Positions 1-14,873 of a stretch of 64,000 nt of DNA are shown piece by piece. The notes beneath the pieces were generated by a model that was given only the letters and a program-made list of their open reading frames with translations, made no database searches and was not told the origin of the DNA. The first letter of the stretch is position 1, and each line of letters opens with the position of its first letter. The translations under genes were made by a program, and so were the position numbers. This stretch comes from Blattabacterium cuenoti. GTDB lineage: Bacteria > Bacteroidota > Bacteroidia > Flavobacteriales > Blattabacteriaceae. The stretch covers positions 434,001 through 498,000 of the forward strand of contig NZ_CP059182.1 in the NCBI RefSeq assembly GCF_014251255.1, read 5' to 3'.

Positions 1-1314
1 TTTAAGAAAACTAGAAATATTTTTTTTACTTTTGTTTTTTATAGCTATTCTATATTTAGTAATACAAATCTTATAAAGTGCTTTTTCTTTTAAAATACTT
101 TTAGGAAAATCATTTATGAAATGATTTAAAGAAAACAAAGCGGCATAATCCTTATGCATAAGAAAATACAGATTCGCTATATAATAATCTTTCTTTTCAA
201 GTTTTTTCAACAATTTATTTAATAGAATATCTATTTTCTTTCTTTTAGAACTATTTGGAAATTCTAGAATAAATTGATTTAGCAAATCAATAGCCATATG
301 AATATTTTTCTGATCTAAATTAAAATTTAATGAAGAAAGATAATAATTGAACCCCTTTTTAAAAGAATCATTTTCTATAGATTTTTCTTCTTTTAGTTCT
401 GAATCTGAATATGGATATTTCTTTTTTAAGAAAATTTTTATTTTTTTAAGAAAACTTTTACTTTTTGATTTTTCTTCTTTTAGTTCTGAATCTGAATTCA
501 GAAAACTTTTACTTTTTGATTTTTCTTCTTTTAGTTCTGAATCTGAATTCAGAAAACTTTTACTTTTTGATTTTTCTTCTTTTAGTTCTGAATCTGAATT
601 CAGAAAACTTTTACTTTTTGATTTTTCTTCTTTTAGTTCTGAATCTGAATTCAGAAAACTTTTACTTTTTGATTTTTCTTCTTTTAGTTCTGAATCTGAA
701 TTCAGAAAACTTTTACTTTTTGATTTTTCTTCTTTTAGTTCTGAATCTGAATTCAGAAAACTTTTACTTTTTGATTTTTCTTCTTTTAGTTCTGAATCTG
801 AATTCAGAAAACTTTTACTTTTTGATTTTTCTTCTTTTAGTTCTGAATCTGAATTCAGAAAACTTTTACTTTTTGATTTTTCTTCTTTTAGTTCTGAATC
901 TGAATTCAGAAAACTTTTACTTTTTGATTTTTCTTCTTTTAGTTCTGAATCTGAATTCAGAAAACTTTTACTTTTTGATTTTTCTTCTTTTAGTTCTGAA
1001 TCTGAATTCAGAAAACTTTTACTTTTTGATTTTTCTTCTTTTAGTTCTGAATCTGAATTCAGAAAACTTTTACTTTTTGATTTTTCTTCTTTTAGTTCTG
1101 AATCTGAATTCAGAAAACTTTTACTTTTTGATTTTTCTTCTTTTAGTTCTGAATCTGAATTCAGAAAACTTTTACTTTTTGATTTTTCTAAATTAAAAAA
1201 AGCATGCTTATTCTGTTTCTGTTTTATAAAACTATTATTAGTACATCCTGTTGGATGGAACAATAATAATATATTGAATACAAATAAAAACAATAAAAAA
1301 ACAATTTTTTTCAT
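1..1314 (-). CDS. bamD: BamD-like outer-membrane assembly lipoprotein with repeat-replaced N-terminal half (3' end outside window)
   Basis: Minus-strand frame open from ATG at 1314 to the left edge (438 codons). Residues 1-23 are a lipoprotein signal peptide ending in lipobox HPTGC (Cys24). About 18 unique residues follow, then a partial and 14 complete copies of the 17-residue unit NSDSELKEEKSKSKSFL (to about residue 289). The last ~149 residues resemble the C-terminal half of Bacteroidota BamD: a TPR end (FLKKKYPYSD...), FNYYLSSLNFNLDQKN, then helical TPR pairs (AIDLLNQFILEFPNSS; DYAALFSLNHFINDFPKS). Usual BamD is about 260-280 residues and has N-terminal TPRs where the array lies. BamD is the essential periplasmic TPR partner of BamA in beta-barrel insertion. 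It starts 3 bp after the ferritin gene, in an operon with dapA. Family assignment comes from remembered motif order; only the last few dozen residues should be missing. Confidence 0.82.
   Translation of the reverse strand, partial: MKKIVFLLFLFVFNILLLFHPTGCTNNSFIKQKQNKHAFFNLEKSKSKSFLNSDSELKEEKSKSKSFLNSDSELKEEKSKSKSFLNSDSELKEEKSKSKSFLNSDSELKEEKSKSKSFLNSDSELKEEKSKSKSFLNSDSELKEEKSKSKSFLNSDSELKEEKSKSKSFLNSDSELKEEKSKSKSFLNSDSELKEEKSKSKSFLNSDSELKEEKSKSKSFLNSDSELKEEKSKSKSFLNSDSELKEEKSKSKSFLNSDSELKEEKSKSKSFLNSDSELKEEKSKSKSFLKKIKIFLKKKYPYSDSELKEEKSIENDSFKKGFNYYLSSLNFNLDQKNIHMAIDLLNQFILEFPNSSKRKKIDILLNKLLKKLEKKDYYIANLYFLMHKDYAALFSLNHFINDFPKSILKEKALYKICITKYRIAIKNKSKKNISSFLK
449..1189. repeat. 51-bp tandem repeat array (14 full copies plus 27 bp) inside bamD
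   Basis: Fourteen head-to-tail copies of a 51-bp unit lie at 449-1162, followed by a 27-bp partial copy to 1189. I see no differences between copies. Each carries one GAATTC site, at 494 and then every 51 bp to 1157. The unit length is a multiple of three, so the minus-strand bamD frame stays open. A 31-bp stretch just outside the array (380-410) is identical to part of the unit and probably marks the source sequence. There are no spacers, so this is a coding minisatellite and not a CRISPR array. Confidence 0.97.
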
Positions 1315-1317
1315 AAT

Positions 1318-1836
1318 TTATTTCATGTTAGTAACATAGTTTTTCCTAATATCACGATTAAATAAGTAAAGACCTACTTTTTCATCTCCTATTAATTCAA
1401 TTTGATTAAATATCATTTTACTTAATGCTTCTTCTTCTATTTGTTCTTCTATGTACCATTGCAAAAAATTATATGTAAAATAATCCTTTTCTTGTAAAGA
1501 AAGTTCAACCAGTTTATTGATCTCTTTAGAAATTTCCTTTTCTTGTTCCAACAATTTTTGAAATAATTCTTTTAAAGAACTACGTAAAGAAAATTCTTTA
1601 AAGAAAAGAGAAGATGACTGATTGGGAAAAACAGCATATCCTCCTCTCTTATTAATATATCTGATTAATTTTAACATATGTTTTCTTTCTTCATTTGAAT
1701 GATCATATAAAAATTCACATATTCCATCAAATCCTTTATATTCAGCCCAAGATGCCATGGATAGATATAATTGAGAAGATTCTAATTCTCTAATTAATTG
1801 TTTTTTTAATTCCGTTTGTATTATTTCACTAAACAT
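1318..1836 (-). CDS. ftnA: non-haem ferritin
   Basis: 172-residue iron-storage protein, the usual length for bacterial ferritin subunits that form 24-mers. Ferroxidase-centre residues are visible: Glu in RELESSQLYL near residue 18, Glu-Glu-x-x-His in SNEERKHM near 50, and the acidic run EEQIEEEALSK near 130. Known function: oxidises Fe(II) and stores ferric mineral in the cytoplasm. It lies between dapA (6 bp gap) and bamD (3 bp gap), so it is very probably cotranscribed with both. The ATG at 1836 gives the standard N-terminus. Nothing unusual except low-GC codon use. Confidence 0.93.
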   Translation of the reverse strand: MFSEIIQTELKKQLIRELESSQLYLSMASWAEYKGFDGICEFLYDHSNEERKHMLKLIRYINKRGGYAVFPNQSSSLFFKEFSLRSSLKELFQKLLEQEKEISKEINKLVELSLQEKDYFTYNFLQWYIEEQIEEEALSKMIFNQIELIGDEKVGLYLFNRDIRKNYVTNMK

Positions 1837-14480: not shown

Positions 14481-14873
14481 ATGTTTTTCATACTAATCCA
14501 ACAAAATCCTATAATAAATACTCTTTGGATGTTTGCATTAATTTTTATAGTTTTTTATTTCTTTATGATACGTCCTCAAATAAAAAAACAAAAAATTGAA
14601 AAAAAATTTCAAGAAAATATAAAAAAAGGAAATTATATAGTGACAAGTTCAGGTATTCATGGAAAAATTATAGAAATAACAAATAATTTTTTTGTATTAG
14701 AAACTATTATAGGAAAAATAAAATTAGAAAGAAATACTGTTTCTAAAGAATTAACTCAATTACGTTATGGAGACCTTGTAAAAAAAAATAAAGAAAAAGA
14801 AAAAAAAATAATAGAAAAAGAAAAAAAAATAATAGAAAAAGAAAAAAAAATAATAGAAAAAGAAAAAAAATAA
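14481..14873 (+). CDS. yajC: preprotein translocase accessory subunit YajC with repetitive tail
   Basis: 130 residues. One membrane helix (about residues 14-31) followed by FMIRPQIKKQKIEKKFQENIKKG and a small beta domain (NYIVTSSGIHGKIIEI...), typical of YajC, which works with SecDF. The conserved part ends near residue 100. Beyond it the protein is a tandem repeat of the heptad EKEKKII (three full copies and a partial), encoded by a 21-bp minisatellite. Normal YajC ends at about 90-110 residues, so the tail is an extension. It lies 11 bp before coaE. Confidence 0.93.
   Translation: MFFILIQQNPIINTLWMFALIFIVFYFFMIRPQIKKQKIEKKFQENIKKGNYIVTSSGIHGKIIEITNNFFVLETIIGKIKLERNTVSKELTQLRYGDLVKKNKEKEKKIIEKEKKIIEKEKKIIEKEKK
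14793..14870. repeat. 21-bp in-frame tandem repeat at the end of yajC
   Basis: Copies at 14793-14813, 14814-14834 and 14835-14855, and a 15-bp partial copy 14856-14870, then the stop codon. The unit is (G)A5GA9TAATA-like and contains only A, G and T. The period is a multiple of three, so copy-number change lengthens the Lys/Glu tail without a frameshift. Confidence 0.95.

Follow-up and report, generated by a model that had tools for sequence, protein, structure and literature searches.

The bamD gene of Blattabacterium cuenoti, an endosymbiont of cockroaches, raises the question of what a long array of identical repeats is doing between the lipoprotein signal of BamD and its tetratricopeptide repeats (TPRs): has the array taken the place of the N-terminal TPRs, as the original prediction had it, or did it grow in a gene that had lost them before? 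The gene lies at the start of the window, by which we mean the whole stretch of 64,000 nucleotides analysed, in a genome of 632,233 bp on one contig (G000:C1). Its features are as follows.

Window 1..1314, minus strand: truncated, repeat-bearing bamD (codons 1-438 of 464; full ORF G000:C1:433920-435314)
Window 13..366, minus strand: BamD C-terminal homology region (TIGR03302 positions 110-227; TPR3-5 part), from profile and predicted fold
Window 380..410, minus strand: 31-nt exact copy of part of the repeat unit, outside the array, coding for SDSELKEEKS of the ancestral linker
Window 448..1161, minus strand: 14 copies of the 51-nt unit (NSDSELKEEKSKSKSFL), residues 52-289
Window 1162..1189, minus strand: 28-nt partial copy at the 5' edge of the array, from unit comparison
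Window 1243..1314, minus strand: signal peptide with a lipobox-like PTGC at its end, the Cys being residue 24, from the sequence by eye
Window 1318..1836, minus strand: ferritin-like gene directly upstream of bamD, a conserved neighbour

The array-bearing bamD gene and its C-terminal part

The minus-strand frame is uninterrupted over window positions 1-1314, and the complete ORF codes for 464 amino acids, with its stop at G000:C1:433920, outside the window, followed by rpoZ. The conserved ferritin-like neighbour was used to locate bamD in other genomes, and the orthologous position between ferritin and rpoZ holds in the bamD-bearing Blattabacterium genomes. As had been predicted, the protein starts like a lipoprotein: judged by eye, a hydrophobic N-terminus is followed by PTGC, in which the Pro at -3 is atypical. 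In the genus alignment, the lipobox Cys is missing from BamD of the two closest relatives, one of which also lacks the LDQ segment. Tandem Repeats Finder (TRF) places the array at window positions 449-1189 (period 51, 14.5 copies, 100% matches, score 1482), and the expected 14 copies plus a partial one were recovered from the assembly sequence by unit comparison as well. Thirteen of the 14 full units are exact; the 14th differs by a single synonymous change, its last codon being CTT in place of CTG. The array amounts to 238 residues, which are in frame, charged and of uniform composition; its copy number in the assembly is provisional.

Profile matches and predicted fold both identify the last ~150 residues as BamD, in agreement with what had been proposed for this end of the protein. 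Pfam PF13525 (YfiO) matches the ORF with 32.7 bits, above the 25-bit cut-off, and places the C-terminal half in the BamD family, whereas the TIGR03302 match (E=1.3e-10) stays under the family cut-off because it covers only positions 110-227 of 239; the family assignment by HMM thus stands for the first profile and falls short for the second. In profile comparisons the C-terminal part also matched BamD from F. johnsoniae, B. thetaiotaomicron, Rhodothermus and E. coli. Window positions 1-420 were modelled with AlphaFold2 at a pLDDT of 91.1, and the 26 best PDB matches of the model are all BamD or BamA-BamD chains, with TMq values of up to 0.73. The N-terminal half of the BamD profile gave no match, in keeping with the predicted absence of the first TPRs. 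The five TPRs of BamD are accordingly not present, about 105 N-terminal profile positions being missing here and genus-wide, and we class the array-bearing protein as a truncated BamD remnant, not as canonical BamD. A normal, full-length bamD elsewhere was sought in a profile search of the whole genome, which found no second copy.

Truncation across the genus and origin of the array

The truncation extends across the genus. A search of 49 Blattabacterium genomes found bamD either missing or without roughly the first 100 profile positions in every one of them, and none of the 49 yields a full-length TIGR03302 match or passes the family cut-off. The match at the bamD locus starts at TIGR03302 position ~95-131 in nearly all of them; the best matches of G009 and G019 lie at positions 28-121, a shift that is read as TPR cross-register since a genus profile covers both proteins like those of the other genomes. 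Within a sample of the order comprising 79 genomes, 8 of them Blattabacterium, 62 pass the TIGR03302 cut-off with near full-length matches, and a genome of ~345 kb from the same family (G064) matches over positions 3-227. Based on the presence of the N-terminal half in these outgroups, we infer that it was lost before the genus diversified. The suggestion that the N-terminal TPRs look dispensable in this symbiont is in line with their absence from all bamD-bearing Blattabacterium genomes searched. A split bamD was also considered for several genomes with weak second TIGR03302 hits (~3-97), and was rejected: in the two genomes examined for this, G042 and G012, the hit is a TPR protein of its own, whose gene follows a CorC-like gene and precedes ribH and mutL; as this protein coexists with bamD in G012, it is not the missing half of BamD.

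That the array stands in place of the TPRs is contradicted by the same comparison, as the TPR loss is genus-wide without an array and BamD of array-free relatives aligns to both array flanks (KKIKIFLKKKY...ENDSFKKGFNYYLSSLNFNLDQ versus NIFRKLNLFSKKKY...ENESFKRGLNYYFKSLNFDLDQ). The lipobox Cys and the LDQ segment are 309 residues apart here, 238 of which belong to the array; without these 14 x 17 residues the spacing is ~71, which falls inside the range of 29-83 found in those Blattabacterium relatives where it is measurable, and it is 105-116 in eight of nine other Bacteroidota examined. The linker between anchor and TPRs is short and unconserved in the relatives. The array is confined to this genome, with no comparable anchor-TPR array in other Blattabacterium, and since the N-terminal loss is common to the genus, the loss came first and the array later. 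Judged by these alignments, the array is a recent insertion in an already degenerate linker. The 31-nt stretch that is identical to part of the unit sits 37 nt past the downstream edge of the array, in its 3' flank; the chance expectation for matches to the unit is 0. Local duplication is the simplest reading of how the array arose, and the flank copy is probably its seed or birth scar. Different tandem repeats are found at the C-terminal end of bamD in G003 (L026) and G009 (L047).

In-frame arrays in other envelope genes of this genome also argue against the array having taken the place of the TPRs. Four more envelope proteins carry them, all with periods divisible by three: an OmpA-family protein (G000:C1:248114-251662) with 38 x 60 bp, that is 38 copies of 20 residues, which separate its N-terminal region from the OmpA domain; an NlpC/P60 protein (4.6 x 39 bp); a PBP (8 x 12 bp); and YajC (4.4 x 21 bp, window positions 14780-14870), where the array forms a repetitive C-terminal tail. 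The open frame of the OmpA-family protein is 1220 aa long here, compared with ~400-450 in most relatives and 781 in G009. The bamD array is an ordinary repeat expansion, and it shows that, in a reduced genome, linkers of envelope proteins that are under weak constraint can be enlarged by in-frame repeat growth. A 28-copy, 27-bp array at G000:C1:350770-351524 lies in no recognised gene.

Decay and loss of bamD with BamA retained

More interesting than the array is the recurrent loss of bamD in genomes that keep BamA. In the interval between ferritin and rpoZ, bamD is missing or present only as fragments in 15 of the 49 Blattabacterium genomes (G042, G044 and G017 among them), and its frame is interrupted in one. 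Mapping loss onto the ferritin plus rpoZ tree, or onto the tree with BamA added, gives 11 changes in either case, and the strongly supported branches of the latter alone force at least 8. BamA is present in 48 of the 49 genomes, the array-bearing one included, and is mostly full length. As the whole gene has been lost in relatives that keep BamA, the gene content indicates that BamD is dispensable at least in those lineages. In G023, a bamD ORF remains, yet BamA gave no match even at E up to 1, and an OmpA-family query was also without a match. Short lipoprotein-like ORFs with no Pfam match occupy the place of the lost bamD in G014 (L044) and G006 (L049), and the ferritin-rpoZ interval of G014 contains repeat-rich sequence and 176 N.

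Where bamD survives, the substitution rates point to constraint that is relaxed and still present. Against the two closest relatives, dN/dS is 0.36 and 0.58 for the C-terminal part, 0.29 and 0.19 for ferritin and 0.10 and 0.17 for rpoZ; over pairs of surviving bamD it is 0.16-0.69, hence below 1, and above the ferritin and rpoZ values in most pairs. A search for compensating changes in BamA gave no signal: among bamD-less lineages, recurrent residues occur in 15 columns, the background mean being 16 (sd 11). The BamG profile PF03349 matched none of the 49 Blattabacterium genomes; it also misses four of ten other genomes of the order.

Taking these gene contents together, we lean towards the view that barrel assembly in Blattabacterium would run on BamA with half of BamD, and that BamD has been wholly lost at least 8-11 separate times. 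If true, this would be a natural and repeated bypass of a subunit that is reported to be universal in Bacteroidota and is apparently essential in F. johnsoniae. A genus that halved BamD at first and later lost it repeatedly while retaining BamA would offer a natural series on the roles of the two BamD halves and on the conditions under which BamA can work by itself. Searching the literature for Blattabacterium together with BamD yielded no paper; subscription work was mostly outside the reach of this search, and earlier reports of bamD loss may exist.

Proposed history and comparison with known BAM systems

We consider it likely that the locus as a whole is explained by a halved BamD remnant, whose linker was later enlarged by in-frame repeats, with the array being tolerated and not selected. 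The N-terminal half, comprising about two TPRs and the first part of TPR3, would have been lost before Blattabacterium diversified, leaving the lipoprotein signal, a poorly conserved linker and the TPR3-5 part that faces BamA. A short piece of the linker would then have been duplicated locally in this lineage and the copies multiplied in frame to 14.5, probably by replication slippage or unequal recombination. According to the structural model, the C-terminal part probably still folds; it probably also still docks on POTRA5 of BamA, anchored to the outer membrane via a charged spacer of ~250 residues that is presumably tolerated and near-neutral. A functional replacement of the N-terminal TPR domain by the array, with a long tether selected for its function, would fit the placement of the array after the lipoprotein signal and ahead of the retained TPRs, the open frame and the uniform charged composition. 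We regard it as highly improbable, as the TPRs are missing genus-wide without any such array, the linkers of relatives at this site are short and unconserved, and similar arrays arose in other, unrelated proteins that this genome encodes.

By now the C-terminal part may have lost its function: the lipobox Cys is gone from the two closest relatives, and the LDQ segment from one of them. The strongest rival goes further and takes bamD to be a pseudogene here, an expressed or silent relic heading to deletion, with the array as growth in a dead gene. The 15 losses and one broken frame among the 49 genomes, the fast evolution of bamD and the missing Cys of the closest relatives all speak for this reading; we nevertheless think it rather unlikely, given an ORF intact across 464 codons at 26% GC, a dN/dS below 1 in the C-terminal part and a predicted fold that is still that of BamD. 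Finally, the existence or length of the array could be an assembly artefact, since 741 bp of 100% identical units exceed the span of short reads, and a run of N stands in the repeat-rich bamD locus of G014. The 31-nt copy in the flank supports a local duplication, as does the variant unit at the end of the array, and the other arrays of the assembly have different units, which makes an artefact distinctly unlikely and any error most likely one of copy number, not of the existence of the array. We thus prefer the halved remnant with a tolerated repeat expansion.

BamD has been described as universally conserved across Bacteroidota, and in F. johnsoniae bamD could not be deleted (PMC12611786). 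The protein described here resembles BamD/YfiO of this phylum (F. johnsoniae 9n2d chain F; B. thetaiotaomicron 9hiv chain D) in its C-terminal TPR profile and fold and in its lipoprotein-like N-terminal signal, but lacks the first ~105 profile positions and has a 238-residue array inserted. With the other Blattabacterium bamD genes it shares the ferritin-bamD-rpoZ locus, the N-terminal truncation and the C-terminal core, whereas the anchor-TPR array is found only here, and the repeats of G003 and G009 are different ones, at the C-terminus. TPR3/4 of BamD is reported to bind POTRA5 of BamA, and E. coli can lose BamD given certain bamA alleles, for example bamA E470K (PMC13067283). The bypass in E. 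coli is similar in that the outer membrane is assembled with BamA and without BamD, while the Blattabacterium case is deduced from natural gene loss, with no recurrent BamA substitutions above background. Loss of BAM lipoproteins is also seen in other insect symbionts: three Buchnera strains retain BamA, BamD and BamE and one is without any Bam protein (PMC3246468), and Moranella retains bamA and bamD (PMC3620526). In these symbionts, according to the two papers (PMC3246468, PMC3620526), BamD stays where BamA stays or all Bam proteins are lost, in contrast to some Blattabacterium, which have kept BamA and lost BamD.
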